Source: Agaricicola taiwanensis
Lineage (GTDB): Bacteria > Pseudomonadota > Alphaproteobacteria > Rhizobiales > Methylopilaceae
Length of the DNA: 64,000 bases
Assembly (NCBI RefSeq): GCF_014635245.1
Contig: NZ_BMCP01000001.1
Location: 496,001-560,000 of the forward strand
Direction: 5' to 3'
The position numbers and the translations under genes were made by a program. Every line of letters begins with the position of its first letter. Position 1 is the first letter of the stretch. A model generated the notes under the pieces. The model searched no databases, was not told the DNA's origin, and saw nothing but the letters and a program-made list of their open reading frames with translations. Positions 33,434 to 64,000 of the stretch are shown here, piece by piece.

Positions 33434-33705
33434 AGCAATCCTCCAATGACCGCACGAGATATGACAATTCGGCAATTGTCGCAATCCAGCACTGATTCCA
33501 AGCCCACCTTTATACACACTCCTCAGACGCCTCGACGCCCCCTTTGCCGTCGCGGTTCGCTGACTTAGCTGACAGATTATTATAATCCCGTCTGGCGTAC
33601 CGCTCCTCGCTTATCCTACTTGCATGTCCTATTTTTCGGGTTGCATGCATGGGGGGATCGCCATATTGTCATGCTAACGATGGGTGAATTGCAAGGATTC
33701 AATAC
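33434..33705. promoter_or_regulatory. Divergent promoter region, MocR regulator / molybdenum-hydroxylase operon
   Basis: This 272-base spacer is less GC-rich than its flanks and should contain both promoters and the MocR sites. MocR operators are usually direct repeats; I could not define a clear pair by eye. Features noted are the ATATTGTCATGCTAACG stretch at 33662-33678 and TTGCATGCATG near 33640. No gene is seen. Confidence 0.45.
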
Positions 33706-34948: not shown

Positions 34949-35445
34949 AGGTTTCACTGACCGTCAACAATCGAAAGACCGACATCGACGTCGAGCCACG
35001 CACGACCCTTCTGGATGCGTTGCGCGATGAACTGAGCCTCAAGGGCACGCACGCCGGCTGCGAGCATGGTGTCTGCGGTGCCTGTACCGTCATGGTCGAC
35101 GGCGTGGCCGTGCGCTCCTGCCTTATGTTCGCCGTTCAGGGAGAGGGCCTCGACATCACCACGATCGAGGGGATTGCGCGCGGCGAAGGTGAATTGGGAA
35201 TCGTTCAGGACGCCTTTTGCGAAACGCACGGTCTTCAGTGTGGGTATTGCACGCCCGGCATGATTGTCGCGGCGCAGGCGCTCCTGCGGCAGAACCAGAC
35301 GCCTACGGATGACGAAATTCGCGAGGCCATCTCCGGCAATATCTGTCGATGCACCGGCTACGGCCAGATTGTCGAGGCTATACGCCTTGCTGCGAAGCGC
35401 ATGCGCGAGAGCAATGCCCTCAGGGCCGGGGAGGTCGCGGAATGA
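34945..35445 (+). CDS. Molybdenum hydroxylase [2Fe-2S] subunit (CoxS/XdhC type)
   Basis: This small subunit (166 residues) carries two [2Fe-2S] clusters. The plant-ferredoxin-like site is GCEHGVCGACTV (about residues 39-50), with the fourth Cys further on. The second, helical site is CGYCTPGM (about 98) and NICRCTGY (about 133). It shuttles electrons between the molybdenum and flavin subunits. It overlaps both neighbours by four bases, so the three subunits are translated as a unit. The assignment to the family is certain. Confidence 0.93.
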   Translation: MKVSLTVNNRKTDIDVEPRTTLLDALRDELSLKGTHAGCEHGVCGACTVMVDGVAVRSCLMFAVQGEGLDITTIEGIARGEGELGIVQDAFCETHGLQCGYCTPGMIVAAQALLRQNQTPTDDEIREAISGNICRCTGYGQIVEAIRLAAKRMRESNALRAGEVAE

Positions 35446-38832: not shown

Positions 38833-39303
38833 ATGCTGATGAAAATGGAATTGAACGGATCGGAACACATCGCGGCCAGCAGGCGCCAGCTATGGGACGG
38901 ACTGAACGACCCGGCGGTTCTCACCATGTGCATTCCCGGCTGCAAGGCAATGGTCCAGACCGCCCCCGATAGCTACGACGTGGCGATGCAGCTCAAGGTC
39001 GCCGCCGTGGGCGGGGGGTTTGATGGAAAGGTCGCCCTCTCGGACAAGATCGAGCTCGAGCGCTGCCGGATCGCGGTGTCGGGTGCGGGAACGCTGGGCA
39101 CGGGCTCCGGCACGGCCGAATTCGTGATCACCGAGATCGATGCCGAAAATTGTCAGCTGGACTATGCAGGGACCGGAGAGATCGGCGGGCTTGTTGCGGG
39201 CGTTGGCCAACGAATTCTCGGCTCCGTTGCAAAACACCTGACGAAGCAGTTCTTTACCGCGCTCCGGAAACATTTCGCCGAACTCGAAAAAGCGGAGGTG
39301 TGA
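38833..39303 (+). CDS. CoxG-like SRPBCC-family protein
   Basis: This 156-residue protein of the carbon-monoxide-dehydrogenase subunit G (CoxG) family has a START/SRPBCC helix-grip fold. The N-terminal part MELNGSEHIAASRRQLWDGLNDPAVL is diagnostic. A short hydrophobic or amphipathic C terminus may attach it to the membrane. In CO-oxidising bacteria CoxG anchors the hydroxylase to the membrane, and similar proteins accompany many Mo-hydroxylases. The ATG at 38833, at 38839 or at 38845 could be the start; GGGAGGAG precedes the first. It sits within the Mo-hydroxylase operon. Confidence 0.87.
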   Translation: MLMKMELNGSEHIAASRRQLWDGLNDPAVLTMCIPGCKAMVQTAPDSYDVAMQLKVAAVGGGFDGKVALSDKIELERCRIAVSGAGTLGTGSGTAEFVITEIDAENCQLDYAGTGEIGGLVAGVGQRILGSVAKHLTKQFFTALRKHFAELEKAEV

Positions 39304-39307
39304 CATC

Positions 39308-40114
39308 ATGTCGATCACAACCTCCGGAGAACGTTTTGTCACAGTTGGAGGTGCTCATAGCATCTTCCTGTCGGAACGGCCGGCCGTCGGCGGTGCGCTG
39401 CCAGTCCTCTTTCTCAATTCCCTCGCAGCAGATCTGACGATGTGGGATGGCGTGCGTGACGGCCTCGGCCTTCATTCGGCCGCCTACGATGCCCGCGGAC
39501 ATGGCCGCTCTGACGCGGTCGCCGGCGATGCGACCATTGATGAGTTCGCGGATGACGCGGCCGCGGTGATGGCTGCCGCCGGCTTGGAAAGGGCTGTCCT
39601 TTGCGGGCTTTCGCTGGGCGGACTGACGGCCATGCGACTTGCTGAGCGGATGCCGGATCGTGTCGCGGGCCTGGTGTTGGCGAATACCGCTGTTAGTTTT
39701 CCGCCAGCGCAAATGTGGCGCGATCGCGCGGAACTCGCTCGAGCCGGTTCGTTCTCGCAACTCGTCCAGCCCACTCTGGAACGCTGGCTGACGCCATCCT
39801 ACCGTCAAGCGCGGCCGGACGTCGCCGAGAAGGTGCGCGAGATGATACAATCGACGGCCGCGGAGGGATATGCCGCCGCCTGCGCCATTCTGGGTAATGC
39901 AGATACCGGGCAGGCATTGCGGGACTTTGACGGACCGGTGCTGGTCATCGCTGGAAGGCATGACCAATCCACTCCCATCGCCCGGGCCGAAGAGATGGTC
40001 GCATTGGCTGATAACGCCGAGCTTCTTGTGCTCGAAGCCGCACATCTTTCCGCCGTCGAGTGCGCGGCCGAATTCGGCGCAGCATTGAAGCGGTTCGTCG
40101 AACGGGCAAGCTGA
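39308..40114 (+). CDS. Alpha/beta-fold hydrolase, 3-oxoadipate enol-lactonase-like
   Basis: This 268-residue soluble serine hydrolase has its nucleophile elbow at GLSLGG (about residues 99-104), an acid near residue 218 (RHDQSTP region) and the terminal His in EAAHLSAVE (about residue 242). It resembles PcaD-type enol-lactonases and related ring-fission-product hydrolases such as N-formylmaleamate deformylases. It is last in the operon, four bases after the CoxG-like gene. In this context it would hydrolyse a lactone, ester or formamide late in the pathway. Family good, substrate unknown. Confidence 0.85.
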   Translation: MSITTSGERFVTVGGAHSIFLSERPAVGGALPVLFLNSLAADLTMWDGVRDGLGLHSAAYDARGHGRSDAVAGDATIDEFADDAAAVMAAAGLERAVLCGLSLGGLTAMRLAERMPDRVAGLVLANTAVSFPPAQMWRDRAELARAGSFSQLVQPTLERWLTPSYRQARPDVAEKVREMIQSTAAEGYAAACAILGNADTGQALRDFDGPVLVIAGRHDQSTPIARAEEMVALADNAELLVLEAAHLSAVECAAEFGAALKRFVERAS

Positions 40115-47848: not shown

Positions 47849-47853
47849 CGCCT

Positions 47854-48375: not shown

Positions 48376-48388
48376 GGAAGTGAGCGAG

Positions 48389-51365: not shown

Positions 51366-52397
51366 ATGATGTCGCAGTTCGTCTCACTGGTTCAGCTGAA
51401 AGACGCGGCTGCCAGCAATCTGTCAGCCGATCTGGCTGATCATATCGCAAGTGCCGCCGGAACCGAGGCCACGCTCCGCCGTAACCTGATGGCCTTCGAA
51501 AGCATCGCTTTTCGTCCTCGCGTTCTGCGCGACGTATCCCGCGTCGATACCAGTGGCATGGTCCTGGACCGCAAGTGCCGCCTGCCGGTCGTGTTGGCTC
51601 CGGTCGCCTCGCTGCACCGCATCGCCCCGGACGCGGATTGTGCTCTGGTCCGTGCCGCGGGACGTTTTGGTGTGCCCACCTTCATCAGCAGCATAGCCGA
51701 AGCAGGATTTGAAGCGATCGCAGGTGCAGGCCCCGGCGCGTTGGCTCTGCAGCTCTATGTACGCCAGGATCCCGTGGAGGTCGCAGCGATCGTCAAAAGG
51801 GCCCAGGATGCAGGCTATGCCGCCATTGCTGTTACGGTGGATTCCGCGAATTACGGCATCAGGGATCGACAGCGCCTTGGCAAGTATCCGTCACCTGCAA
51901 CTCATGCCCCAGGACGGGATCATCAGGCTCGCCTGACTTGGGAGATACTCGACGAGATCATGTCCGCAGCAGCGCCGATTCCGGTGATGCTGAAGGGCAT
52001 TCAAACCGCCGAAGATGCCGTTCAGGCCGTCCGCTGCGGCGTCAAAACACTCTACATCTCCAATCACGGCGGTCGCCAGTTGGACCATAGCCGGGCCACC
52101 CTGGATGTGCTGCGCGAGGTTCGCGCCGCCATCGGGCCGGAGACGACGATCATCCTCGACAGCGGAATTCGTCGGGGCACGGACGTGCTCAAGGCGATCG
52201 CTCTCGGAGCCAACGCCGTCGGGCTCGGACGGCTGATGGTGTGGGCGCTGGCGGCCGGCGGCGAACAAGGCGTTGTCAGCATGCTCGAACTGCTGGAGGA
52301 AGAGATGCAGAACGCAATGGCGTTGCTCGGCGTCCGCTCGCTCGCGGAACTCAATTCCAGCTATGTCGCCGACGTTCCGCCTCTTTCCTGGTCCTAA
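51366..52397 (+). CDS. FMN-dependent alpha-hydroxy-acid oxidase/dehydrogenase
   Basis: This 343-residue TIM-barrel flavoprotein of the lactate/mandelate dehydrogenase and glycolate oxidase family oxidises an (S)-2-hydroxy acid to the 2-oxo acid. The active-site His and Arg are in ISNHGGRQLDH (His234, Arg237). The FMN phosphate site is the LDSGIRRGTDVLKAIALGANAVGLGR stretch. QLYVRQDP and AVTVDS are also present. It is somewhat shorter than most family members (360-390); the membrane-interacting loop seems reduced. The nearby ThDP decarboxylase and ALDH make a mandelate-like pathway plausible. It is convergent with the TauE gene, overlapping by four bases at the stops. Confidence 0.87.
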   Translation: MMSQFVSLVQLKDAAASNLSADLADHIASAAGTEATLRRNLMAFESIAFRPRVLRDVSRVDTSGMVLDRKCRLPVVLAPVASLHRIAPDADCALVRAAGRFGVPTFISSIAEAGFEAIAGAGPGALALQLYVRQDPVEVAAIVKRAQDAGYAAIAVTVDSANYGIRDRQRLGKYPSPATHAPGRDHQARLTWEILDEIMSAAAPIPVMLKGIQTAEDAVQAVRCGVKTLYISNHGGRQLDHSRATLDVLREVRAAIGPETTIILDSGIRRGTDVLKAIALGANAVGLGRLMVWALAAGGEQGVVSMLELLEEEMQNAMALLGVRSLAELNSSYVADVPPLSWS

Positions 52398-53185
52398 CCT
52401 CCCATCGCGCCCCGGAACAGCAGCACAACTGCACCGCAGCACAGCACGACCTGAAAGGCGGTGAAGAAGGTGCGGTCGCTAAGCCGTTTCGACACGCGGC
52501 GGCCGACCAGGCCCGTGATCAATCCGGGCCCAAGCAGCAGAAGCGCCTCTGTGACGATCTGGAGGCCGATCTCTCCTGCGATGGCCAGCATACAGACACG
52601 CCACACGAGGACCACCGCGGTGACAAGGATAAGCGTCCCGCGAAACGTCTCCCGATCCGGCGCGAAAAACTTCAAGAAGAGTGAGATGAAGGAGATCGAT
52701 CCCGCTCCGATCACGCCTGAGATCAAGCCCGCCACCAAGCCAAACACGGGGCTCACGATGCGCACATGCTTCTCGACCAGTGGCCGCAACGGCTCGAGCC
52801 AGCCGCGCGCATCGATGAGAACCGAGGCAAGGATCACGGCACCGGCCAGAACGCTCAAAGCGCCGCCGCTGATCCGTGCAAAGATCAGGACCCCGACGGC
52901 GATGGACGGCACGAGCACGATCGTCAGGCGCAGCACCACGTCGCGCCTGCCGTAGCGGAGACCGTCCGGTATGAACTGGATGTGAGACATGACGTTTGTG
53001 ACGGCCGCCAACAGCACCGCGTGGTGCGGCCCCACCACGAAAGACCCCGCCACTATGAGAAGCGGCACGGCACCATATCCAAACACGCCCTTGACGAAAA
53101 ACGCCGCGCCGAAAATCACGACGAGCGACAGGACCTGAATCAGCGTCGCGCCTTCAAAAGCCGTGACGCCGAAAATCTGCACCAT
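52394..53185 (-). CDS. TauE/SafE-family membrane permease
   Basis: This 263-residue inner-membrane protein has about eight helices in two similar halves, typical of the sulfite exporter TauE/SafE family (KGVFGYGAVPLLIVAGSF and SGVIGAGSISFISLFLKFF). Members export small organic or inorganic anions such as sulfite or sulfoacetate; many have no known substrate. The start is put at the ATG at 53185, 13 bases after the MarR stop; a start at 53239 would overlap MarR. It likely shares a transcript with MarR. A role in exporting an acid product of this catabolic locus is a guess. Confidence 0.85.
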   Translation of the reverse strand: MVQIFGVTAFEGATLIQVLSLVVIFGAAFFVKGVFGYGAVPLLIVAGSFVVGPHHAVLLAAVTNVMSHIQFIPDGLRYGRRDVVLRLTIVLVPSIAVGVLIFARISGGALSVLAGAVILASVLIDARGWLEPLRPLVEKHVRIVSPVFGLVAGLISGVIGAGSISFISLFLKFFAPDRETFRGTLILVTAVVLVWRVCMLAIAGEIGLQIVTEALLLLGPGLITGLVGRRVSKRLSDRTFFTAFQVVLCCGAVVLLFRGAMGG

Positions 53186-53198
53186 GGTCGGTGTCCCG

Positions 53199-53681
53199 TC
53201 AGTCGGCGTCGTCTCTCGACGATTTCGGTTCCTGGGCAAGCGCCCGCACGGCGCGATGGAGCAGATCGAACAATTGAATCCGTTCGGCTTCGGTCATCTC
53301 GCGCGATGCGGCCAGGTTCACCGCGATTGCGCAGTCCGCAAGCTCTTTCTGGATCGCCCACCCGGCGTCCGTCAGGAAGACATTGACCTTTCGCCGGTCG
53401 TCCCGGTCCCGGACACGCCTGATCAGCCCTTTGCGCTCCAGCGCATCCAAGATCGAAGTCGATGTTGCCTTCTTCACTTCGACAAGGTTGGAAAGCTCCG
53501 ACGAGCTCACGCCGTCATTCTCCGCCAGGCGGCGAAGGTGGTTGAACTGCGCATGGGTGACGCCTGCCTTCTCGAGGCGTGCAGCGATGGCACCCGAGAA
53601 GTTCTTATGCGCCCGCCTGAGCAACAGTCCCAGGCCTATGGGGCCGGGGACTGCGGGCGACTTCGTAGGATTTTCTGTCAA
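53199..53681 (-). CDS. MarR-family transcriptional regulator
   Basis: This winged-helix regulator of about 160 residues matches the MarR family (LEKAGVTHAQFNHLRRLAENDGVSSSELSNLVEVKKATSTSIL, then the DRDDRRKVNVFLTDAG wing). The start is uncertain. A TTG at 53681 has AGGGGA seven bases upstream and gives MTENPTKSP; ATGs at 53720 and 53747 lack ribosome sites. It lies between the ALDH and TauE genes on the same strand. A palindrome CCGGGC-a-GCCCGG (53748-53760) just upstream could be its operator. MarR proteins often sense aromatic acids, fitting the surrounding genes. Confidence 0.85.
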   Translation of the reverse strand: MTENPTKSPAVPGPIGLGLLLRRAHKNFSGAIAARLEKAGVTHAQFNHLRRLAENDGVSSSELSNLVEVKKATSTSILDALERKGLIRRVRDRDDRRKVNVFLTDAGWAIQKELADCAIAVNLAASREMTEAERIQLFDLLHRAVRALAQEPKSSRDDAD

Positions 53682-53778
53682 GGATGTGTCCCCTGGTCTC
53701 CCCGATCCATAGGACCGCATAGCACACAGAGGAAACTGGAAACACACCCGGGCAGCCCGGCAGCATCCATGTCCGCCG

Positions 53779-55206
53779 CTAAGCCGCTTCGTAGCCGAGA
53801 AAGGCCTTCACTTCGGTGAAATCCTCAAGCCCCTCTTTGCCCTGCTCACGCCCGTTCCCTGACTGCTTGTAGCCCCCGAACGGCACATCGCACCGGGCCG
53901 GCGCATAGTTGATGTAGATCCGGCCGGCGCGGATCTTCCTGCCGACGCGTTCGAGCTCACCTCGATCATGGCCGCAGACATAGGCGGCAAGACCATATTG
54001 GCTTTCGTTGGCGATCCGGATGGCATCGTCCACGTCCTCATAGGCCATGATGCTGAGGACGGGCCCAAAAATTTCCTCCTGCGCGATGGTCATATCGTTG
54101 GTCACGTCCCGAAAGACCGTGGGCCGAACGAAATAGCCCTTCTCCAGCCCTTCAGGCTTTCCTGGACCCCCGGTGGCGAGGACCGCCCCTTCACTTATGC
54201 CGCATTCGATCAGGCGCTGGACCTTGTCCCATTGGGCCTTGCTGACAAGCGGACCAAGATCCGTGCCCTGCCGGCGCGGATCACCGGTCTTGACGGTTTC
54301 GGCTGTGACCCGCGCAATCTCCGCCGCTTCGTCCATGCGGCTGCGTTCCACCAGCATCCGGGTCGCGGCCAGGCAGGACTGACCCGTGTTGCGGAAACAG
54401 GCCTTCACGCCGGCGACGACCGCCGATTCGAAATCGGCGGAAGGCAGGATGATATTGGCTGACTTGCCTCCCAGTTCCTGATGGACGCGCTTCACCGTAT
54501 CCGCCGCCGCCTTTGCGACTGCGATGCCGCCGCGGGTCGAGCCGGTGAAGCTCACCATATCGACGTCGGGATGAGCGGAAAGCCGCGCGCCGACATTCGG
54601 CCCGTCACCTTGCACAAGGTTGAAGACCCCGCGCGGCAGACCCACCGCTGCAATTGCCTCGGTCAGTGTGACAGCGCTCAGCGGCGCAATCTCGGACGGC
54701 TTCCATACGATCGTGTTGCCTGTCACCAGTCCGAAGGCGATCTTCGAGGCCGCTTGGTTGAGGGGCCAGTTCCACGGGGTGATGAAGGCACATACACCAA
54801 CCGGTTCGCGCACGACGCGACTGGTTCCCACCATGTGCTCGAACTCATAATCCCGCGCCAGCTTCGCAGCCATCACGAAGCGCTCGATGCAGTTCGCGAC
54901 GTGCGCCGTGCGGGCCCAGTCGAGCGGCGAACCCATCTCGCGGGAGATCCGATCGACCAACTCGTCGGTCCGGGCTTCTATCTGCTGCACGACGGCCTCG
55001 ACGAGATCCGCCCGTTCGGCAACGGGTACCATTGCCCATCCGTCGAAGGCTGCCCGCGCGGCTGCGACAGCATCCTCCACGTCCCGTTCGGACGCCGTAC
55101 CGACCTGTGCCGTCACCTCCTCGGTCGCGGGATCGTTGACGTCGAGTTTGGGGCCACCTGCCGGCCTCCAACTACCATCGATATAGAGATTGAGATCGTT
55201 CGCCAT
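53779..55206 (-). CDS. Aldehyde dehydrogenase family protein
   Basis: This 475-residue NAD(P)-dependent aldehyde dehydrogenase oxidises an aldehyde to the acid. The catalytic Cys is Cys278 in NTGQSCLAATR; the general base Glu lies in HQELGGKSANI about 35 residues earlier. The FTGSTRGG cofactor-site segment and WNWPLNQAASKIA segment are present. The start at 55206 has GGAGG six bases upstream and gives MANDLNLYIDGSW. It is 56 bases behind the ThDP decarboxylase gene and would oxidise that enzyme's product, a benzaldehyde-dehydrogenase-like step. The exact aldehyde is unknown. Confidence 0.9.
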   Translation of the reverse strand: MANDLNLYIDGSWRPAGGPKLDVNDPATEEVTAQVGTASERDVEDAVAAARAAFDGWAMVPVAERADLVEAVVQQIEARTDELVDRISREMGSPLDWARTAHVANCIERFVMAAKLARDYEFEHMVGTSRVVREPVGVCAFITPWNWPLNQAASKIAFGLVTGNTIVWKPSEIAPLSAVTLTEAIAAVGLPRGVFNLVQGDGPNVGARLSAHPDVDMVSFTGSTRGGIAVAKAAADTVKRVHQELGGKSANIILPSADFESAVVAGVKACFRNTGQSCLAATRMLVERSRMDEAAEIARVTAETVKTGDPRRQGTDLGPLVSKAQWDKVQRLIECGISEGAVLATGGPGKPEGLEKGYFVRPTVFRDVTNDMTIAQEEIFGPVLSIMAYEDVDDAIRIANESQYGLAAYVCGHDRGELERVGRKIRAGRIYINYAPARCDVPFGGYKQSGNGREQGKEGLEDFTEVKAFLGYEAA

Positions 55207-55262: not shown

Positions 55263-56999
55263 TCAGTGATCTGCGAGGCGCACGTGCAGCAGAACGGATG
55301 TTCCCTCGCGCGCCGTCCTCACTGCCTCTCGAACGGTTTCGGTAACGGCTGCCGGATCATCAAGCCGATAGCCCTTGAAGCCGAACATTCCCGCCATGGC
55401 CGAGAATTCAGTGTCGTTTCGGAACCGAGACGAAAACTCTCCGCGTTCCCTGGCTGCCCCCTGAGGATAGACTCGAAGGGTCGATTCCTTGACTGCCGAC
55501 CAACCGGCGTTGTCGAGGATCACGGTGAGGATGGGCAGGTCATATTGGCGCGCGACCGCCAGCACCGAAGTCGGGGCGTTGTAGTAGAAGGAGCCATCCC
55601 CGACGACCTGCACGACCAACCTGTCCGGCCGCGCCATCTTGTATCCCAATGCCATGCCGCCCGACGCACCGAGCCCACCTCCCGCCGTGCGGGAAAGCGT
55701 CCCGGCCAGAGGCCGCGCGACCTGCTGGAGCAGCGCCGGCTGGTTCCGGACTGCTTCCTGGAAGATCATGTCCTCCGGCTGCAATTCCAGTCCGAGCGCC
55801 CTCAGCACATGGCTCGGGTTCAGGGCACCCGCCTGGCCGGCATCGGACGCCGCGGCCGCGAACCTTTCCTTTTGCTTGCTGCGGGCAGCACGCAGGGCGG
55901 TCACGCGTTCCGCGGCGGCATTCGCGGCCGTATCGGTACGGTCCCGCTCGATAAGACCGATCAGTTGATTGAGGATCGTCGCGCTCTGTCCCTCGATACG
56001 CAGGTTGGCCGGAAAGCTCCACACGGGCGATCCGGTCTTCATCGCATCGATGTCGATGTGCGCCCACCAAGATCCCGCCGCGGGTCCTCCCTGCGAGGGA
56101 ATCCACGGCACGTCGCTGTCTACCACAAGGCCGACATCCGCCTGGCCGAGCCGCTCGCCGGGCAGACCGCCGGCGAAGCAGTCCATCTCGTGATTGATGT
56201 TGGTCACCATGGAATTTTCGATCACCGCGGCGCCGACAAGCTCGGACAGCTTCTGGATTGCTTCCGACGTTCCCGGGGTCTGACCGCCGTAGGAGGTTAT
56301 GATAAGCGGCCGTTCGGCCGCGAGCAGGCGGCGGGCAAGCTCCTGAAGATCGCCTTCAGAGGCGCCGCGCGACGGCATGGGATGATACCAATCGGGATCA
56401 AACCGTTGCAGCCGCTCCGTCTCGATGGTGCCGGTCAATGCTTCGCGCGGCAGCATGAGATAAACGGGCCCCTTGATGCCCGAATGCATGAGCGAGTGCG
56501 CGCGGCGGACAACTTCCCCGGCATGGGCGGCAGACTGAAGGGTATATTCCCATTTCACGTAAGGCCGAACCAGGGCCGCCTGATCGTAAGGCTCCTGGAT
56601 GAAGTGGACGTAGTTGTCGCGCGTTCCCTTCAGTTCGCCATGGCTGGTGTAGGGCGCCTTTCCCGCCATGAGGAGTATGGGCAAACGCGAGCGGCAGGCG
56701 TTGTGCATGCCCATTGCGGCGTTCGCGGTGCCCACGTCGACGTGCACCAGAACGGCCTGTCCGCGACCGGTCGCCATCGCATAGCCCAGCGCCATGTGCA
56801 CGGCCGTGCTCTCATGTGGGCAGATTATCATCTCGGGCGGTTTGCGCCCCTCCGCGCGCCAGCGCGCCATTTCCTCGAGCAAGGGCGCATGATCGGTCCC
56901 AAGATTTGCGAAGATGTACTCGATCTCAACGTCGACCAGCGCTTCCAGCAGATGGTGCGCGGCCGTACGCGCGACGGCTTGCATAGTGTCCATCATCAT
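55263..56999 (-). CDS. Thiamine-diphosphate-dependent decarboxylase, benzoylformate decarboxylase / acetolactate synthase-like
   Basis: This 578-residue ThDP enzyme has the usual Pyr, central and PP domains. The ThDP-activating Glu is Glu63 (PHESTAVHM); the GDG motif is at 467-469, with DN at 496-497. The LSRTAGGGLGASGGMALGYKMARP stretch precedes GDG. It likely decarboxylates a 2-oxo acid to an aldehyde, which the next gene (ALDH) would oxidise. Three consecutive ATGs (56999, 56996, 56993) follow the tctA stop, with GAGGA just before; the second or third has better spacing. The substrate is inferred, not proven. Confidence 0.85.
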   Translation of the reverse strand: MMMDTMQAVARTAAHHLLEALVDVEIEYIFANLGTDHAPLLEEMARWRAEGRKPPEMIICPHESTAVHMALGYAMATGRGQAVLVHVDVGTANAAMGMHNACRSRLPILLMAGKAPYTSHGELKGTRDNYVHFIQEPYDQAALVRPYVKWEYTLQSAAHAGEVVRRAHSLMHSGIKGPVYLMLPREALTGTIETERLQRFDPDWYHPMPSRGASEGDLQELARRLLAAERPLIITSYGGQTPGTSEAIQKLSELVGAAVIENSMVTNINHEMDCFAGGLPGERLGQADVGLVVDSDVPWIPSQGGPAAGSWWAHIDIDAMKTGSPVWSFPANLRIEGQSATILNQLIGLIERDRTDTAANAAAERVTALRAARSKQKERFAAAASDAGQAGALNPSHVLRALGLELQPEDMIFQEAVRNQPALLQQVARPLAGTLSRTAGGGLGASGGMALGYKMARPDRLVVQVVGDGSFYYNAPTSVLAVARQYDLPILTVILDNAGWSAVKESTLRVYPQGAARERGEFSSRFRNDTEFSAMAGMFGFKGYRLDDPAAVTETVREAVRTAREGTSVLLHVRLADH

Positions 57000-57004: not shown

Positions 57005-58516
57005 TCAGGTTTCGGGGAGTTCGGCCAAATGCGCGCCGGATTTCTTCGCGGGCTTCAGCCAGACCCACAGCAAGACGCACATGAAGGCCAGGGCCACGGC
57101 ACTGATCGGCCGCGTGATAAAGACGCTCGGGTCCATGTCACTGGCGGTCAGGGCGTTGCGCAGATTTTGCTCGAGAATCGGCCCAAGCACGATTCCCAGA
57201 ACCGCCGGAGCCGTCGGGAAGTTGAACTGGACCAGCAGGTAGCCGATGAGACCGAAGATCAGGACGAGCTTGAGGTCAAAGGGATTGGACGCCATCGAGA
57301 AGCCTCCGGCTGCGGCGATGACGAGGATGCTGGGTACAAGGAGACCGTTCGGGATCTCCAGCACCCGTTTGGCAAGACCGCGCCCGGCGAGGCCCATGGC
57401 CAGCATGAGGCAGTTCGAGAGGAACAGCAGCATCAGGATGACGTAGAAAAGGTCGGGATTGCGGGGAATGAAGAACGGCCCTGTTTCGAGCCCCTGGATC
57501 TGCAGCGCCCCTATCATGATCGCGGTCAGCGGATCGCCCGGGATGCCGAGAGTGAGCAGTGGCACCAGCGCGCCGCCGGTCACCGCATTGTTGGCCACCT
57601 CGCAGGAGATGACGCCCTTGACCTCGCCTCGACCGTACCGGTCCTTTGATCGGGCCGCACGGAGCGCCTCCGAATAACTGATCCATGATGCGATCGAGGG
57701 GCCGGTTCCCGGCAAGACTCCGATGAGCGTGCCGATCGCGGCGCTCTTGATCGTCAGCCAGTAGTTGCGAACGATGACGGTCGCCACCTCCAGGACGCTG
57801 GCGCGCTCCTGCAGGGGAAGAGCCTCGACATCGTCCCCGTCCCTGCGCGCCATCAGCAGCATCTGCGGCAGGGCAAACAGTCCGATCAGTGCGGCCGAGG
57901 CGGAAATGCCGGCCATCAGGTTGGCTTGACCGAACAGAAAGCGGCCGACGCCGGACACCGGATCGATGCCCACCGTTGAGGCCGCGATTCCGATGAAGGC
58001 GGCCGCCAATCCCTTGACCATGGATCCGCGGGAGATTCCCGCCACGCAGACGATACCGATCAGCGCAAAGGTGAAATATTCAACCGAGGTGAAGGTCAAG
58101 GCCACCCGCGACAGCATGGGCGCGACGAGGGCGAGGACGGCAACCGAAAACAGGCCACCCACGAAAGATGACAGCAGGGCGGCCACGATGGCTCGGTCTC
58201 CCTGCCCCTTCCGGGCCATGGTATAGCCGTCGAGTGCTGTCGCCACTGATCCGGGCGCACCGGGTGTGTTGAGCAGGATCGCAGGTATGGAGCCGGCGAA
58301 GTAGCCCGAGCAATAGATGCCCAGAATGAAAGCCAGCGAGGTGACCGGCCCCATGACATAGGTCAGCGGCAGAAACAGCACGGTTGCTTTCGTCGCGGTG
58401 AGCCCGGGCGCCGCGCCGAAGATCATGCCTACGAACGCTCCGAAAGTAACGCACAACAATACGATCGGGTCGGCAACAGTGACCGCTGCCCCGGCAAGGT
58501 GAGAGATCACGTCCAT
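57005..58516 (-). CDS. tctA: Tripartite tricarboxylate transporter large membrane subunit TctA (second system)
   Basis: This 503-residue TctA permease has paired repeats: GAAPGLTATKATVLFLPLTY and SIPAILLNTPGAPGSVATALDGY in the first half, LPGTGPSIASWISY and [19 protein letters not shown] in the second. The start at 58516 overlaps the tctB end by ten bases; a longer frame from 58684 lies inside tctB. It is followed five bases later by the ThDP enzyme gene, so transport and catabolism are co-expressed. It is the membrane core for the binding protein at 58996-59964. Confidence 0.92.
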   Translation of the reverse strand: MDVISHLAGAAVTVADPIVLLCVTFGAFVGMIFGAAPGLTATKATVLFLPLTYVMGPVTSLAFILGIYCSGYFAGSIPAILLNTPGAPGSVATALDGYTMARKGQGDRAIVAALLSSFVGGLFSVAVLALVAPMLSRVALTFTSVEYFTFALIGIVCVAGISRGSMVKGLAAAFIGIAASTVGIDPVSGVGRFLFGQANLMAGISASAALIGLFALPQMLLMARRDGDDVEALPLQERASVLEVATVIVRNYWLTIKSAAIGTLIGVLPGTGPSIASWISYSEALRAARSKDRYGRGEVKGVISCEVANNAVTGGALVPLLTLGIPGDPLTAIMIGALQIQGLETGPFFIPRNPDLFYVILMLLFLSNCLMLAMGLAGRGLAKRVLEIPNGLLVPSILVIAAAGGFSMASNPFDLKLVLIFGLIGYLLVQFNFPTAPAVLGIVLGPILEQNLRNALTASDMDPSVFITRPISAVALAFMCVLLWVWLKPAKKSGAHLAELPET

Positions 58517-58947
58517 GTGGGTAGCACCAGTTGAAAGCCGCGTGTGAAAGCCAGGTAGAGACCGATCGACAGTCCAAGCGGCAAGAGCACCAGGAGTAGC
58601 TTGTTGCGGATGCCAAGCGTCCACATCGTGACCAAAGCCAGGAGTGCCGCGCCCACGCGGAAATCCCACCAGGCGAACCACCAATAGAAGGCGATCACCA
58701 TGGCGCCGACGACGGCGACCTGTGTGTCAATCAACTTCGGCAGCGGGGCAGCGGCGGAGCGAAGCCCACGCACCAGCAGGATCAGGCCGCAAATCAGCAG
58801 GCCCCAGGCACAGATCAGCGGAAAGAAGTTTGGTGGCAGCGTAGCGCCGGCAGCCCCGCGACCCATGTCGAGGGACAGCCACACCATAACAGCGCCGCCT
58901 CCCGTCAAGGTGGCGCCGCTGACCGTGTTCTCATGTCTGAGGGCCAT
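58507..58947 (-). CDS. tctB: Tripartite tricarboxylate transporter small membrane subunit TctB (second system)
   Basis: This 146-residue membrane protein has four helices. The family pattern LPPNFFPLICAWGLLICGLILLVRG follows a first helix. It is the small membrane subunit for the second TctCBA uptake system. It is 48 bases downstream of tctC; the gap contains a 12-base perfect palindrome that may form an attenuating hairpin. It overlaps the tctA start by ten bases. Confidence 0.87.
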   Translation of the reverse strand: MALRHENTVSGATLTGGGAVMVWLSLDMGRGAAGATLPPNFFPLICAWGLLICGLILLVRGLRSAAAPLPKLIDTQVAVVGAMVIAFYWWFAWWDFRVGAALLALVTMWTLGIRNKLLLVLLPLGLSIGLYLAFTRGFQLVLPTWT

Positions 58948-58995: not shown

Positions 58996-59964
58996 TTATT
59001 TGTTGACCAGTCCGGATTCCTCGAGGATTGGACGGATCGACTCTCCCGCCTCCTCGATCGCGGCACGAAACTCCTTCGGCCCGAGATAGGCGGCCTCGAA
59101 GTAGTACTGCTTGAGGCGTTCATTAAAGGTCGGGTCGTCCAGGGCTTCCTTGAGAGCAGCCGAGACCTTGTCGATCACCTCCGGCGGGGTACCCTTGGGT
59201 GCGACAAGGCCGAACCATTGGGAACGGAGATAGTCGAAGCCCTGCTCCTGGTAGGTCGGCACATCAGGCAGGTACTGCCAGCGCTTTTCGGCAGCGAGAC
59301 CCAGCACCCGGATGTTGCTCTTGTCCTTGTCGAACATCGGCGGGTAGTTCGAGCCGCCGCCGGAAAAGAAATCGACCTCGCCCGATAGCAGTTTTACCGA
59401 GCCGGCCGGGCCGCTTTCCGAATTGATGTAAGTCGCCTTCAGATTGTTCTGGGCAAGGAATACGGCCATCGCCAGATGAGGGCCAGAGCCGATGCCGGCG
59501 GCCGTCCAGGTGAGACGTTCACCCTTCCTTAGCGCCTCCACGAGCTCGGTCAGCGACTTGTACGGACTGTCCGCGCTCACCGCGACACCCGACGGAATCT
59601 CGACCATCCGAGCGACCGTTTCGAAATCATCGGCGGTGTACATGGAACTGTCCATGATCGGCCGTGCCGCTAGCGTCGAATCCGAGCCGATGCCGAAGGT
59701 ATAGCCGTCAGGCTTTTCCTGCTTCAGGTTGGCCAAACCGACGGCTCCGCCAGCGCCCGGCTGGTTGATGATGACCACCGGTTGCCCCAGCTTCCTTTCC
59801 AGCAAAGGTGCGACCAGACGGGCCAGGCCGTCCGTTGCGCCACCCTGTCCGAAGGGTACGACGAGTTCGATCGGCTTGTTGGGGTAGTCCTGGGCTGCTG
59901 CCGAGAACGTGCAGAAGGCCAGCGCGGCAGCGGCGATGGTCCCCATAAGCTTCGCCTGTTTCAT
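58996..59964 (-). CDS. tctC: Tripartite tricarboxylate transporter binding protein TctC (second system)
   Basis: This 322-residue periplasmic Bug/TctC protein has a clear signal peptide (MKQAKLMGTIAAAALAFCTFSAAAQ, cleaved about residue 25) and the family start YPNKPIELVVPFGQGGATDGLARLVAPLL. It captures a carboxylate for the TctBA subunits encoded just downstream. GGGAGGAG precedes the ATG. It starts the minus-strand tctC-tctB-tctA-ThDP-ALDH operon; upstream lies a hairpin that ends the UbiD operon. Confidence 0.91.
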   Translation of the reverse strand: MKQAKLMGTIAAAALAFCTFSAAAQDYPNKPIELVVPFGQGGATDGLARLVAPLLERKLGQPVVIINQPGAGGAVGLANLKQEKPDGYTFGIGSDSTLAARPIMDSSMYTADDFETVARMVEIPSGVAVSADSPYKSLTELVEALRKGERLTWTAAGIGSGPHLAMAVFLAQNNLKATYINSESGPAGSVKLLSGEVDFFSGGGSNYPPMFDKDKSNIRVLGLAAEKRWQYLPDVPTYQEQGFDYLRSQWFGLVAPKGTPPEVIDKVSAALKEALDDPTFNERLKQYYFEAAYLGPKEFRAAIEEAGESIRPILEESGLVNK

Positions 59965-60071: not shown

Positions 60072-61316
60072 TCAGGCCGACAGCCTGCGTTTCAACTCCC
60101 TGCGTTCAAGCTTTCGGGGACTGAAGACCGGCTCCAGGTTGAAGACCCGTGCGGCGTTGCCGCCCAAGATGTTCCTCTTTGCCGTTTCGCCCAGGAATGG
60201 CAGATCATAGATCACGCTGGGCAGGTCCATGTCCCAATGCGGGTAGTCGGAAGAGTAGAGCAGCTGCGTCTCGGCGTTGATCATCTCGAAGGTCAGTTCG
60301 AGCGCCTTCGCGTTATCCACCATCTCCATCGGCTGCGAGGTGTAATACATGTCGCGCATGTATTCTGACGGCTTTTTCTTGAGCAACGGCGCGTCGGAGT
60401 GGCGCATCATGTATTCGTTGTCGAGCCGCTGCATCAGGAATGGCAGCCACGCCAGTCCTGCCTCGATCCACATGACCTTCAGCTTGGGAAAGCGTTCAGG
60501 CAGGCCGTTGATGACCCAGTTCGACAGGTGCAGCATGTTGTGCCATGCAAAGCCCAGGGCGTGGAGCGTCAGGAAGCGATTGCAGGTCGATAGACCAGGT
60601 TCCTGCCCTCCAAGCCCCGTGTGGAAGCCAAGCGGCAGATTACGTTCCTCGAGCATCTTGTAGGTGCGGACATAGGCGTTGTCATAAACGCCGCGATAAC
60701 GGGTCGATGTGACCATGAAACCGATCACGCCGGGCTTCTCGCCGAACTCCTCAATGATCTTCGTACACGCCTCCGGATCGTTGAACGGCAGGTAGAGCAT
60801 GGACTTCAGGCGCGGGTCTCCGCTCAACACGCGCTCGCACAGCCAGCGATTGTAGCCGAAGGCAAGCTCCACCTCGAGATCGACGCGGGGCGACAGGCCG
60901 AGGTTCAGCAGCGGCGTCGGAAACATACAAGCAATGTCTGTTCCCATCGCATCCATCCAGCGGCGCATCAGCGTCACGTCGCGATGCGGGGTCGGCGGCA
61001 CCACCTCGGACTTGCGTTTGGGATATCGGATGAGGCGGCCACCCAGATCCTGATATTGGCCGAAACCCGTCGATATGCCCTTGCGGCTGATACCCTGATA
61101 GAGGATCTCGTTGCGCAGGACCTCGTTCGGCACATATTCGGCGATCTCTTCCGACGCTTCGTTCTCGTAGTGGTGTGAATCCACGTCGACAATCAGGAAG
61201 TCCTCGTATCCGCGAGCGTCGGCCTGCTGTTGAGCATGGGCGAGGTGAACGGACGTGTCGAAAGGTTCGGTAGTCAGGTCGCGGACCGTGGTCACCTGAC
61301 GTTCTGCAATCGTCAT
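60072..61316 (-). CDS. Amidohydrolase-family metal-dependent hydrolase/decarboxylase
   Basis: This 414-residue TIM-barrel protein is of the amidohydrolase_2 family. The first metal-site motif reads DVDSHHYE, with Asp in place of the first His of the usual HxH. Later, GFHTGLG holds the barrel His, WIEAGLAWLPFLMQRLDNEYM the central Glu segment, and SSDYPHWD the final Asp. Such proteins hydrolyse or decarboxylate aromatic or cyclic acids. The start at 61316 overlaps the 114-residue gene's stop by four bases (ATGA), so they are coupled. It is the last gene of the ubiX-ubiD operon. The reaction is unknown. Confidence 0.85.
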   Translation of the reverse strand: MTIAERQVTTVRDLTTEPFDTSVHLAHAQQQADARGYEDFLIVDVDSHHYENEASEEIAEYVPNEVLRNEILYQGISRKGISTGFGQYQDLGGRLIRYPKRKSEVVPPTPHRDVTLMRRWMDAMGTDIACMFPTPLLNLGLSPRVDLEVELAFGYNRWLCERVLSGDPRLKSMLYLPFNDPEACTKIIEEFGEKPGVIGFMVTSTRYRGVYDNAYVRTYKMLEERNLPLGFHTGLGGQEPGLSTCNRFLTLHALGFAWHNMLHLSNWVINGLPERFPKLKVMWIEAGLAWLPFLMQRLDNEYMMRHSDAPLLKKKPSEYMRDMYYTSQPMEMVDNAKALELTFEMINAETQLLYSSDYPHWDMDLPSVIYDLPFLGETAKRNILGGNAARVFNLEPVFSPRKLERRELKRRLSA

Positions 61317-61657
61317 GCGACGGCTCCTTCTTTGTGATCGATAAGGGAGGTTTGGCGGGCAGGGCGTACGTGGCCCATCTGCTCCCACAGGCCGAGTTCA
61401 AAGACTTCCATCCGACCGGCATCGAGAAGGGCAAGCGCCGCAATCGCGATTTCGGTGGGCGTTAGCGCACTGTTGCGGCCAACGGGCATCAGGCGAGCGC
61501 CCGATTCGGCCTTGGCGACGTAGAGGCGGACGAGCGCAGCGAGAGCCTGGCCCAAAGCGTCGTCGTCAAAGTCGCCGATGCGGCCTTCTTCGATCGACTT
61601 GTCAACCAGAGCAGCGATACGGCTCGCGGTTTCGGCGAAATTCTCAGATGGTGACAT
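61313..61657 (-). CDS. Conserved-looking small protein of unknown function in the UbiD operon
   Basis: This small protein has 114 residues (start MSPSENFAETASRIAALV), is mainly helical and soluble, with no cysteine, signal peptide or membrane segment. A central RLYVAKAESGARLMPVGRN and a helix EIAIAALALLDAGRMEVFELGLW follow. I recognise no family. It overlaps the Rieske gene end by 14 bases and the amidohydrolase start by four bases, so it must be made with them. Partner or assembly function is possible; nothing in the sequence shows catalysis. Confidence 0.75.
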   Translation of the reverse strand: MSPSENFAETASRIAALVDKSIEEGRIGDFDDDALGQALAALVRLYVAKAESGARLMPVGRNSALTPTEIAIAALALLDAGRMEVFELGLWEQMGHVRPARQTSLIDHKEGAVA

Positions 61658-62009
61658 AGAGATGGCCGTCCCTTTCCGTGACCTCGAACTTCTTGAGCCG
61701 CAGGCGCGCATCGCAGACGTTCACGCCATCTGAAAGCCTGTATTCATAGCCGTGCCACGGGCACACGATGTGCATCTCCGATGAATTGAATTTCTGGCCC
61801 TGAAATAGGTTTTGAGCGTCTACATCGTCGACGACAGCCGCCATCCGAACGCCTTCACAGGCGGGGCCGCCCTGATGTGGGCATAGGTTTCTGTAGGCAT
61901 AAAACTGCCCCTCATGGTGAATGACGCCAATCTCTAGGTTGTCCACTTCGAGGATGCAGGCCCCTCCATCAGGAATATCCTCACGTCGTCCTACGCAAAC
62001 TTCGCTCAT
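61644..62009 (-). CDS. Rieske [2Fe-2S] ferredoxin-like protein
   Basis: This 121-residue single-domain Rieske protein has cluster ligands Cys43-x-His45 (in LCPHQGG) and Cys83-x2-His86 (in CPWHGYEY). Both fit the ferredoxin component of ring-hydroxylating dioxygenases or nitrite-reductase-small-subunit-like proteins. No oxygenase or reductase gene is in view, so its partner is unknown. It lies 78 bases after ubiD and overlaps the small unknown gene by 14 bases. An electron-transfer role is a reasonable inference. Confidence 0.9.
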   Translation of the reverse strand: MSEVCVGRREDIPDGGACILEVDNLEIGVIHHEGQFYAYRNLCPHQGGPACEGVRMAAVVDDVDAQNLFQGQKFNSSEMHIVCPWHGYEYRLSDGVNVCDARLRLKKFEVTERDGHLYVTI

Positions 62010-62087
62010 GTCAGTACTCCGTATGCTTCAATATGGTATGGAACCATACGATATTCATAATCGGCGCGGCTGTCGACTGCAAAAGGT

Positions 62088-63767
62088 CTATCTGCCTGAC
62101 AATTTTTGTTCGCTTTCCTCCGGATCGACCCTGCTCTCCGGCTTCAGGCCTTCGATCTGCAACTCCTTGCTGATCTTGCCGTTTTCGAGATACTCCCCGC
62201 GTGCTGCACGTTGCGCCGCCGCATCCCAGACGCGGTGCCACGCCCCTAGGGAATAGCCATGCCACGGCGCCTGTGGGCTAAGTCTAGGAAGATCCAACTC
62301 CTCCCAGATCGCCTTCGCCCGCTCCATGTATTCTTTGCCTGGCAAGGCCAGTGGCGGCATGGGAGATTTCATCGTCGCGTCGATCAGGAGCGAGGAATCC
62401 TCCTCGCCGTCGTGCTCGCGCTTCGGACCGTGCCCCTGGCCCCGATGCGGCAGGATCTGGATGTCCTGAACCGGGTTGGTTCGATAGGCCATCGCCCACA
62501 GCAGCGAGTCGGGGCTGTCGACGTCGATGTCGTCGTTGACGGCGATGCAGAGCTTGCCGCAATCGCCCTTGAAATAGGCCGCGCCATAAAGCGCCCGCCA
62601 GATCTCCGATCGCGGAGTGCCTGGTTCCATCGTGACAACCGTGACCCTCAGAAGGCCGGTCAGGGGTTCATGCAGCGACACCTTCCGCACACCGCGGATC
62701 GATAAGGTCGATTTCAGGTGATGAGTGAACAGCGGTTCATAGGCGACCCGCTTGATCACCGAGCTCTCCGACGGCGCAACCTGACTGATGTAGCTGGGAA
62801 TCACAGCGTCCTTGCGCCGGGTGACAGCGGTAACCCGCATCGGCATGTTGTATTCCTCGAGAGCGACATGCCCGTGGCTCTCACCAAACGGACCCTCGGG
62901 CTCGACGCGGGTCACGTCGATCCATCCCTCGATGACAACCTCGGCCTCCGCAGGGACCATCAGCGGCACGGTCCGGGCGCGGGTGATGGCAATTGGCGCT
63001 CCCGCAAGCCCGCCCGCCACGTCGAATTCATCCACGCCGACCGGCAGTTTCTGCGGTCCCATGAACGCCACGTAGGGTGGGCAGCCCAGCACGATAGCGA
63101 TGGGCATCTCCCTGTCGCCGGCCTTCTGGTGCTTGAGATAATGCTGGTAACCGCCAGCGCCGCCGACACGCGTCGCCATGCGTACCACCAGCCTGTCCGG
63201 TGCTTTGAGGGCGCAGCGATAGGTGCCCATGTTCTGGACCCCATCCTCCGGATCGATCGTAATCACGTTGGTGGCCGTCAGGGTCGGGGCAGAATCGAAC
63301 CCCGGCGTCGATACCGGGATCGGCAGCATGTCCACGCCATGCCCCTCGCGCGACAGGATCTCGCCCTCTTCGACGATCTCCTGGCATGGTGCATTCGTGG
63401 TTTCCTGAGGTTTGATCGGGTTTGAGATCGCCCGGTCCCACTTGGCCTGGATCTCGTCCAGCGCGCAGCCCATGCCGGTGGAGTAGACGGCTCTGCTGGC
63501 CGCCATGCCACCGACGATCACCGGGATCTCGTAACGGCGTCCCTTGCCGTCACGGATATTGGTGAACAGGAACGCGCGCCGGTCCTCCTCCTTCAGACCA
63601 CCGACATACTGCCAGCGCACGAGCGGATGCATTTCGCTGTCCTTGTCCACCGGACGGTCGACGCGCATAAGCAGTCCCGCGGCGTCGAGCGCAGCGATAT
63701 GTTCGTGAAGATCACGATAGGGCCGAATGCCTTGCATACCCATTGCTTGTTTCCCTTCCACCCGCAT
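62088..63767 (-). CDS. ubiD: UbiD-family decarboxylase
   Basis: This 559-residue enzyme depends on prenylated FMN made by the neighbouring UbiX and (de)carboxylates aromatic or conjugated acids. The prFMN/Mn site segments are NMGTYRCALKAPDRLVVR (the NxGxYR pattern) and PFGESHGHVALEEY, the acidic pair of the E-R-E active site. GDCGKLCIAVNDDIDVDSPDSLLWAMAYR is the conserved C-terminal metal region. The start at 63767 shares one base with the ubiX stop (TGATG); an ATG at 63743 with a GGAAGGGA site is an alternative. The family is too diverse for a substrate call from sequence. Confidence 0.9.
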   Translation of the reverse strand: MRVEGKQAMGMQGIRPYRDLHEHIAALDAAGLLMRVDRPVDKDSEMHPLVRWQYVGGLKEEDRRAFLFTNIRDGKGRRYEIPVIVGGMAASRAVYSTGMGCALDEIQAKWDRAISNPIKPQETTNAPCQEIVEEGEILSREGHGVDMLPIPVSTPGFDSAPTLTATNVITIDPEDGVQNMGTYRCALKAPDRLVVRMATRVGGAGGYQHYLKHQKAGDREMPIAIVLGCPPYVAFMGPQKLPVGVDEFDVAGGLAGAPIAITRARTVPLMVPAEAEVVIEGWIDVTRVEPEGPFGESHGHVALEEYNMPMRVTAVTRRKDAVIPSYISQVAPSESSVIKRVAYEPLFTHHLKSTLSIRGVRKVSLHEPLTGLLRVTVVTMEPGTPRSEIWRALYGAAYFKGDCGKLCIAVNDDIDVDSPDSLLWAMAYRTNPVQDIQILPHRGQGHGPKREHDGEEDSSLLIDATMKSPMPPLALPGKEYMERAKAIWEELDLPRLSPQAPWHGYSLGAWHRVWDAAAQRAARGEYLENGKISKELQIEGLKPESRVDPEESEQKLSGR

Positions 63768-64000
63768 CAATCCGCCCCCGAACGTTTCGGCTGGCCGTTC
63801 CATCGCACCACCGTTCCTGCGTCGAAGCCGAGCAGGTCCAGGGCCCGGCCCGCGAGATGGTTCACGATATCCATGACCGTCTGGGGCCTGTAGTAGAGCC
63901 CGATGACGGGCGGCATGACGATCGCGCCGTTGCGCAAAGCCTGGTCCATGATGCTGACGTGACCGGCGTGAAGCGGCGTCTCGCGGAACATCAGCACCAG
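63767..64000 (-). CDS. ubiX: UbiX-family flavin prenyltransferase (5' partial)
   Basis: Only the C-terminal 77 or so residues are in the window; the frame runs on past the right edge. The typical UbiX end is clear: MFRETPLHAGHVSIMDQALRN, then AIVMPPVIGLYYRPQTVMDIVNHLAGRALD. UbiX makes prenyl-FMN from FMN and dimethylallyl phosphate, the cofactor of UbiD. It ends in a TGATG junction with ubiD, showing a dedicated cofactor-supply pair at the head of this operon. Confidence 0.9.
   Translation of the reverse strand: MVLMFRETPLHAGHVSIMDQALRNGAIVMPPVIGLYYRPQTVMDIVNHLAGRALDLLGFDAGTVVRWNGQPKRSGAD

Follow-up and report, generated by a model that had tools for sequence, protein, structure and literature searches.

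A predicted dinuclear oxygenase of the amidohydrolase family, its Rieske protein and a conserved third protein in a UbiD gene cluster of Agaricicola taiwanensis

We analysed a 64,000-nucleotide stretch of the Agaricicola taiwanensis genome (contig NZ_BMCP01000001.1, positions 496,001 to 560,000; the window), concentrating on five adjacent genes that encode a UbiX flavin prenyltransferase, a UbiD-family decarboxylase dependent on prenylated FMN (prFMN), a small Rieske protein, a 114-residue protein here called Unk, and a member of the amidohydrolase family here called AH. The last three genes (the triad) probably encode a multicomponent monooxygenase in which AH would hold a dinuclear metal site and which would serve a carboxylate-processing pathway containing UbiD and a molybdenum hydroxylase (Mo-hydroxylase). 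AH is very probably an oxygenase that had been overlooked: the original prediction, a model's reading of the same DNA, had stated that no oxygenase large subunit was present to use the Rieske protein, whereas AH has both the sequence features and the gene neighbourhood that have been published for dinuclear oxygenases of the amidohydrolase family.

Results

The UbiX-UbiD-Rieske-Unk-AH gene run

Coordinates below are those of the whole window unless preceded by C1 (contig coordinates) or by an L-number, which denotes a fetched locus. The five genes are as follows.

63767..64000, minus strand: UbiX flavin prenyltransferase, 3′ part only (the whole frame, 197 residues, is at L003 9768-10361)
62088..63767, minus strand: UbiD-family prFMN decarboxylase, 559 residues (PF01977, 6.8e-47)
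61644..62009, minus strand: Rieske protein, a small [2Fe-2S] ferredoxin of 121 residues (PF00355/PF22543; ligand motifs CPH...CPWH)
61313..61657, minus strand: Unk, a predicted four-helix protein of 114 residues (no Pfam or NCBIfam family)
60072..61316, minus strand: AH, 414 residues, predicted terminal oxygenase component (PF04909, Amidohydro_2, 2e-24)

All five reading frames were confirmed, and the tight packing described in the original prediction was reproduced: a TGATG junction between UbiX and UbiD, a gap of 78 bases from UbiD to Rieske, a 14-base overlap of the Rieske and Unk frames, and an ATGA junction between Unk and AH. The UbiX frame crosses the end of the window and reaches C1:560360. 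The run is longer than five genes, as genes for TctC, TctB, TctA, a thiamine diphosphate (ThDP)-dependent enzyme, an aldehyde dehydrogenase, a MarR regulator and a TauE-type exporter follow AH on the same strand. The earlier naming of the decarboxylase and the Rieske protein agrees with their Pfam matches, and the 114-residue protein remained unrecognised in Pfam, in NCBIfam and in comparisons with PDB folds. For AH the amidohydrolase label holds as a family match to PF04909; by sequence, model and ligands, the protein best fits the amidohydrolase-related dinuclear oxygenases (AROs).

AH matches the dinuclear oxygenases of its family

When the AH sequence was compared with the PDB, the highest-scoring entries were 8sm7 (2.6e-38), AibH2 (6m1w_B, 1.3e-30) and SfbO (8sm6, 1.2e-29), followed by 8sm9 and 8sm8. 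Lower matches were the chains that, judging from the entries, belong to AibH1 (∼9e-16), 5-carboxyvanillate decarboxylase (4e-14), ACMSD (1e-10) and PtmU3 (2.5e-9). An AlphaFold2 model of AH, made from 38 sequences, had a predicted local distance difference test score (pLDDT) of 84.8 and a predicted template modelling score (pTM) of 0.87. In the structural comparison, which gave 1000 aligned chains, the top ten rows were all AROs, with Z-scores from 38.9 to 35.5: 8sm7 at 38.9 (root-mean-square deviation 2.3 over 336 residues), SfbO at 38.6, AibH2 at 36.6 and 8sm8 at 35.5, the lowest of the ten. PtmU3 was in row 11 with a Z-score of 32.6, and mononuclear enzymes came after it (32.0 or less).

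The metal ligands of AibH2 are D25, H27, H211, E265, D337 and H340, with D342 as a second-sphere acid (PMC7782822, in the part consulted). Their counterparts in AH, numbered from its second codon, are D45, H47, H231, E284, D356, H359 and D361, and all seven positions are invariant in two alignments of AH proteins, one of 21 sequences (A1) and one of 38 (A4). H211, E265, D337 and H340 were mapped through the alignment with AibH2, and D25 and H27 through that with 8sm7 together with the residue offset of the model alignment. An acid two residues beyond the last histidine is described as conserved in binuclear enzymes only (PMC7782822, same part). AROs carry this acid as D342 in AibH2 and E313 in PtmU3, and mononuclear decarboxylases and hydrolases such as ACMSD and LigW lack it; AH has a DYPHWD motif in which D361, the acid in question, does not vary.

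The gene neighbourhood points the same way. In the portion of PMC10401708 consulted, 555 AibH2-like proteins hold all six ligands and 90% have a small Rieske protein adjacent, and equal neighbourhood logic is used to find AROs in PMC10811679 (likewise in part); the AH-Rieske pair of the window qualifies by the criteria of both papers. The window also encodes a second PF04909 protein, AH2, which, unlike AH, has ACMSD as its best match (6e-35). The method therefore does not label every PF04909 member an ARO.

It is improbable that AH is instead an ordinary mononuclear hydrolase or decarboxylase of PF04909, with the Rieske protein serving an oxygenase encoded elsewhere. Such an enzyme would be useful for the ring cleavage implied by the cluster; the remaining characterised PF04909 enzymes are cofactor-free or mononuclear, according to the text seen of PMC10811679; and AibH1, which binds a single Zn and has five of these ligands (PMC7782822, in part), is among the sequence matches of AH. 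However, ARO chains come first by sequence and ten ARO structures stand above the mononuclear ones by model, the six ligands and the binuclear-only acid are invariant, and the cluster already contains an ACMSD-like protein in AH2. In addition, Rieske homologues lie near AH at 73 of 80 loci (see below), and a plain hydrolase would not need one.

The Rieske protein would be the electron donor of AH. No alpha subunit of a Rieske non-heme oxygenase was found by a Pfam scan that covered the cluster genes and part of the frames outside the cluster, and a LigXa-type alpha-subunit query had no match in the window or in L003. In three relatives (a Paracoccaceae metagenome-assembled genome (MAG), Stappia and Salipiger; L057, L059 and L184) genes for a VanB-type reductase and a Rieske oxygenase of the LigXa type are found less than 10 kb from the triad, which may provide a shared source of electrons. 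An FAD enzyme that overlaps Rieske in Aminobacter (L187) was considered as a reductase and rejected, its Pfam match being of the aromatic-ring hydroxylase type (FAD_binding_3).

Unk is a real gene without a recognised family

Unk is 70–72% identical to its counterparts in two loci with the same gene order, L042 and L087. The nucleotide changes at first, second and third codon positions number 31/13/62 and 27/15/60, respectively, so that third positions dominate, and Unk keeps its neighbours at dozens of loci. Because of this third-position bias and the conserved neighbours, Unk is a real gene.

Searches of Unk against Pfam and NCBIfam gave no family, only scattered weak matches from one or two members, and its annotated plasmid homologues are named ‘hypothetical protein’. 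A model from 45 sequences (pLDDT 85.4, pTM 0.66) has helices at residues 3-23, 32-51, 67-80 and 85-95. Foldseek found no match to this model in the PDB at E ≤ 0.001, a second structural comparison, with 9 chains, gave nothing useful, and a profile search of the PDB gave mostly de novo designed helical proteins, at best with E 0.0057, and no relevant match. The best-conserved part is a C-terminal FELGxW stretch. Our literature searches found published ARO-Rieske pairs and no account of Unk; the neighbourhood figure of PMC10811679 may show it unlabelled.

Unk, AH and Rieske occur together

To describe their distribution within the class, Unk (E ≤ 1e-3) and AH (profile, E ≤ 1e-80, up to four candidates scored per genome) were searched in the same 385 genomes. 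The two proteins were found in an identical set of 17 genomes, that of the window included; the other 368 had neither and none had one alone. By a naive calculation, two identical sets would arise by chance with a probability of 6e-30, but the genomes are related (13 of 277 genera). At the 18 Unk loci of the class other than the window's own, a Rieske gene was within ∼1.3 kb in every case and AH adjoined Unk in 17, the identities of the AH copies at these loci being 46–64%; in L033, AH is 6 kb from Unk.

Named genomes were scanned with A1; of a larger number of candidates the best 80 AH loci were taken, and presence was counted within the stretch around each locus. A Rieske homologue was present at 73 of the 80 and Unk at 56. 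In 56 of 57 Unk-bearing loci, counting the window, all three genes fall within 2 kb. The usual order is Rieske-Unk-AH; Unk follows AH in L026, L027 and L070, and Aminobacter L187 has AH-Unk-Rieske. A quick tree built from 89 AH proteins has Unk across most of its branches, and of the 18 proteins with Rieske and no Unk, 12 fall in one clade. Some relatives have two to five AH copies. Triads were found in Alphaproteobacteria, Burkholderiaceae MAGs, Amycolatopsis, Mycobacterium and an Acidobacteria MAG.

A phylum-wide search for Unk gave hits in 4 of 398 genomes. One Unk match, in G441 (E 3.8e-5), lies inside a 1042-residue frame with no AH or Rieske nearby and was judged false. Plasmids searched with the single Unk sequence gave no match at 1e-5, although plasmid triads exist, and AH2 as a query of the plasmids also gave none. 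Two Rhodospirillales MAGs have a single Rieske-Unk pair followed by four to five tandem copies of an ARO-like gene (L050 5000-11224; L052 8649-13773). In L157, L167 and L174–L177, AH proteins of the same subfamily have no Rieske or Unk within ∼1.5 kb, and a Rieske-Unk pair is found elsewhere in the genome; in L157 that pair is 6 kb from AH.

UbiD and UbiX are separable from the triad

The closest PDB relatives of UbiD are 6h6x (2.4e-35) and 6h6v (1.1e-33), which we take to be HmfF, the 2,5-furandicarboxylate decarboxylase. A glutamate pair and an arginine align with these structures and presumably represent the E-R-E motif of the UbiD family. UbiX was identified by sequence, with 71–72% identity to the UbiX proteins in the same place in L042 and L087 and 56% to an annotated UbiX. 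With a PF01977 domain and an adjoining UbiX frame, UbiD has what defines its family, and prFMN binding and decarboxylation are predicted. The earlier suggestion of a prFMN decarboxylase with its cofactor maker is supported, and a role in the catabolism of a ring acid is probable. In one pairwise alignment, UbiD has a serine opposite the histidine at position 296 of the 6h6x chain; we take the one-residue shift from the published H297, described as key for furans in HmfF (PMC7976604, in part), as a matter of numbering.

A UbiD-family gene was present around 10 of the 80 AH loci. Five of these (L042, L043, L050, L083 and L087) have UbiD proteins of the window's subfamily (51–85% identity) and five (L045, L046, L048, L117 and L119) have another subfamily, 27–28% identical to that of the window, which in L045 and L046 directly adjoins Rieske. 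UbiX was present at 5 of the 80 (L042, L048, L087, L117 and L119), and each of these five also has UbiD and the complete triad; the genes are contiguous on one strand in two, L042 and L087. With two UbiD subfamilies near the oxygenase, UbiD has come there on more than one occasion; this speaks for a possible functional link, 10 of 80 being a raw count.

The original prediction had treated the five genes as one possible new decarboxylation module. The genes are tightly packed in the window, their order is repeated in L042 and L087, and UbiD of the second subfamily is near a triad or a pair in five further loci. Nevertheless, 70 of the 80 AH loci have no UbiD in the stretch, and UbiD and UbiX of the window's subfamily recur beside Mo-hydroxylase genes without the triad. 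The five genes are therefore not a natural unit across genomes, and this separability weakens a single module, in which the Rieske protein would support UbiD/prFMN redox chemistry or some other step, to the point where we consider it very improbable.

The cluster and its relatives

The further genes of the window that were assigned to the cluster form two blocks. The first continues downstream of AH:

58996..59964, minus strand: TctC, tripartite tricarboxylate transporter receptor (PF03401)
58507..58947, minus strand: TctB (PF07331)
57005..58516, minus strand: TctA permease, start inferred (PF01970)
55263..56996, minus strand: ThDP-dependent enzyme, probable 2-oxoacid decarboxylase (PRK08327 equivalog NF006203, 611.9 bits, cut-off 456)
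53779..55206, minus strand: aldehyde dehydrogenase (ALDH; 69–70% identity in L042/L087)
53199..53747, minus strand: MarR regulator, start uncertain (PF01047)
52394..53239, minus strand: TauE/SafE-type exporter (the L087 homologue comes after the cluster)

The second is split off:

32054..33517, minus strand: GntR-aminotransferase (MocR-type) regulator (homologues adjoin the cluster in L042, L087 and L043)
33688..34023, plus strand: NIPSNAP-domain protein (PF07978)
34070..34948, plus strand: Mo-hydroxylase FAD subunit (PF00941; 67–73% in L042/L087)
34945..35445, plus strand: Mo-hydroxylase [2Fe-2S] subunit (PF01799/PF00111)
35442..37844, plus strand: Mo-hydroxylase large subunit (PF02738/PF20256; 78–82% in L042/L087)
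37834..38814, plus strand: AH2, the second PF04909 protein, ACMSD-like
38833..39303, plus strand: CoxG (PF06240)
39308..40114, plus strand: alpha/beta hydrolase, 3-oxoadipate enol-lactonase-like (TIGR02427, 221 bits, under the cut-off of 255.85)

In L042 (a Roseicyclus MAG) and L087 (Rhodobacterales bacterium HKCCE2091), the order UbiX-UbiD-Rieske-Unk-AH-Tct genes-ThDP enzyme and then ALDH is kept, with 62–86% identity per protein and a few opposite-strand genes between the ThDP enzyme and ALDH. Upstream of UbiX, these same clusters contain the alpha/beta hydrolase, CoxG, AH2, the three Mo-hydroxylase subunits and the NIPSNAP protein (53–82%). Propylenella binzhouense (L043) has the genes from UbiD to TctA and MarR, with UbiX not in the stretch, followed by those for Mo-hydroxylase, AH2, CoxG and NIPSNAP. 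In the window, the Mo-hydroxylase block stands apart at 32–40 kb on the plus strand, and CoxG is found both there and before UbiX, in a second copy that is 65% identical and lies beyond the window (L003 10482-10949). This arrangement resembles an ancestral cluster that has been broken in two. On a Neorhizobium petrolearium plasmid, a Rieske-Unk-AH-ThDP set (L185 8214-11795) lies ∼60 kb from a UbiD/Mo-hydroxylase set (L186 9971-19109), an echo of the split in the window.

It is unlikely, if slightly less so than a mononuclear AH, that the triad belongs to another pathway and was captured next to UbiD by rearrangement. Triads adjoin many different catabolic genes and CoxG stands at both ends of the split. 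Among 41 close relatives, UbiD (E ≤ 1e-100) was found in one, the window genome itself; the cluster is therefore sporadic and perhaps mobile. Against capture, L042 and L087 retain the order UbiX-UbiD-Rieske-Unk-AH-TctC and have the Mo-hydroxylase block attached, and the proteins of both blocks are 53–86% identical.

A proposed function for the cluster

The likely function of the cluster is the catabolism of an aromatic or heteroaromatic acid. The claim that no named pathway has this gene set held in our literature searches, in which the cluster was not matched to a characterised pathway. Riboflavin/lumichrome catabolism was considered as a model and set aside; it uses an enzyme of the xanthine oxidase type and a ThDP-dependent heterocycle decarboxylase, but the portion of PMC12746152 consulted describes a true Rieske dioxygenase and lists no UbiD.

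In the scheme that we consider probable, a carboxylate would be taken up by the tripartite transporter and would then undergo, in some order, ring hydroxylation by the Mo-hydroxylase, prFMN-dependent decarboxylation by UbiD with the cofactor made by UbiX, and oxygenation by the triad. AH would be a TIM barrel whose ARO-type dinuclear site, Fe/Fe or Mn/Fe, would activate O2 and hydroxylate a C-H bond; electrons would pass from an NAD(P)H reductase to the Rieske ferredoxin and on to AH. Unk would bind the oxygenase, or its interface with the ferredoxin, and be needed for productive coupling or assembly. The ring product might be opened and hydrolysed by the ACMSD-like AH2 and the enol-lactonase-like hydrolase, and the last steps would be 2-oxoacid decarboxylation by the ThDP enzyme and aldehyde oxidation.

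Several observations weigh against this scheme. By the rule of the structural comparison tool, the Z-scores of PtmU3 (32.6) and of the next entry, 4dzi (32.0), the best of the mononuclear type, are tied, and the mononuclear partner AibH1 is itself a sequence match of AH (∼9e-16). A ferredoxin reductase was not recognised in the cluster, and two oxidoreductase queries were unmatched within the window. The figure for the co-occurrence of AH and Unk takes no account of phylogeny, with 13 of 277 genera concerned. Second copies of Unk occur next to Mo-hydroxylase genes (L050 15064-15444) and next to a Rieske gene in a stretch where AH was not detected (L052 19371-19919). Furandicarboxylate was rejected as a substrate of UbiD, the furan-specific histidine being replaced by serine. 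Finally, Unk is missing from the stretch around 24 of the 80 AH loci and a Rieske homologue from 7, so neither must be encoded in cis. The genomes of 18 of the 24 loci without Unk were searched; that of L079 has no Unk anywhere, and the other 17 have it elsewhere, in 31 places. At 20 of these places that were examined, AH adjoins Unk in all 20 and Rieske is visible in 19, L133 ending at a contig edge.

The second Unk paralogues of L050 and L052 have lysine-rich N-termini and lie apart from AH genes.

Possible roles of Unk

Judged by the company it keeps, Unk is the predicted dedicated third component of this AH-Rieske pair. More broadly, it seems to belong to this branch of AROs as a component, perhaps one that can be shared in trans. 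The distances between Unk proteins follow those of AH (partial r of 0.55 given Rieske) above those of Rieske (0.31 given AH).

Unk may alternatively be an assembly factor, either a helper in metal loading or folding or a structural subunit that replaces AibH1, and this is compatible with AH being an oxygenase. The possibility deserves to be taken seriously, though we hold it at somewhat less than even. AH loci without Unk are mostly in genomes that have it elsewhere, so Unk is maybe shared in trans, as a helper would be; the protein is small and helical and its alignment has no invariant column, T68, L88 and W91 alone being nearly invariant. Nothing decisive speaks against it: the position between Rieske and AH, the overlapping frames and the distances that track AH suit a stoichiometric partner equally well.

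Comparison with known systems

AH shares with the known AROs (AibH2, SfbO, PtmU3, 8sm7, 8sm8 and 8sm9) the PF04909 TIM barrel, the six ligands, the second-sphere acid and an adjacent small Rieske protein. Its identity to the ARO structures is 24–30%, and that to PtmU3 is 19%. The oxygenase and Rieske ferredoxin are also shared with the three-component 2-aminoisobutyrate monooxygenase AibH1H2-AibG-AibF; unlike that system, the window has no AibH1-like subunit beside AH and no recognised AibF-like reductase, and it has Unk in addition. The third small protein between Rieske and oxygenase has no equivalent in the published aib gene table, from which Rhow_000805 is absent. An oxygenase with a Rieske protein is thus of a known kind, and Unk as a dedicated third protein is undescribed within our literature searches. 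The window ARO also differs from known AROs in sitting within a UbiD/Mo-hydroxylase cluster.

MmoB is the effector protein with which Unk is compared here. Dinuclear hydroxylase systems with an effector protein (PMC7782822, in part) could share a common logic with the triad, namely a dinuclear hydroxylase, a Rieske ferredoxin and a small extra protein. However, their hydroxylase is a four-helix bundle and AH is a predicted TIM barrel, and no match of Unk among solved proteins, by sequence or fold, points to an effector. As a tentative extension, Unk could be the first member of a new protein family with an effector or coupling role for dinuclear oxygenases built on a TIM barrel. In that case this clade of AROs would consist of multicomponent monooxygenases that have a dedicated regulator and were reached independently of soluble methane monooxygenase (sMMO) and MmoB. 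One of them would here be linked in series to UbiD and the Mo-hydroxylase, within a pathway for a heteroaromatic acid that has yet to be described.

AROs are a young enzyme class, with native substrates and partners mostly not established. A conserved protein that travels with one branch could help to explain weak activity if AROs of that branch are assayed without native partners. The tie of an ARO to UbiD, a Mo-hydroxylase, an enol-lactonase-like hydrolase and a ThDP enzyme narrows the search for its substrate, and ‘amidohydrolase’ genes in such triads would deserve re-annotation.

For UbiD, the closest structures are those of HmfF, with the glutamate pair and arginine aligned and serine in place of the furan-specific histidine. 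The closest clusters without a triad in the stretch are on Neorhizobium and Sinorhizobium plasmids (L186 and L188), which share UbiD (55–56%), UbiX, CoxG, a Mo-hydroxylase of the xanthine dehydrogenase family, TctC and the ThDP enzyme; the N. petrolearium triad is on the same plasmid as L186, at the distance given above. L188 and L189 are unannotated and are described by the sequence matches of this analysis.

Between the two pathway blocks of the window, at 43263-49900, there is a series of tripartite transporter receptor-like genes with a TctA-like permease. At 51366-52397 there is a frame resembling an FMN-dependent alpha-hydroxy-acid dehydrogenase, with a LysR-like regulator adjoining at 50200-51135. 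All of these were named by eye.

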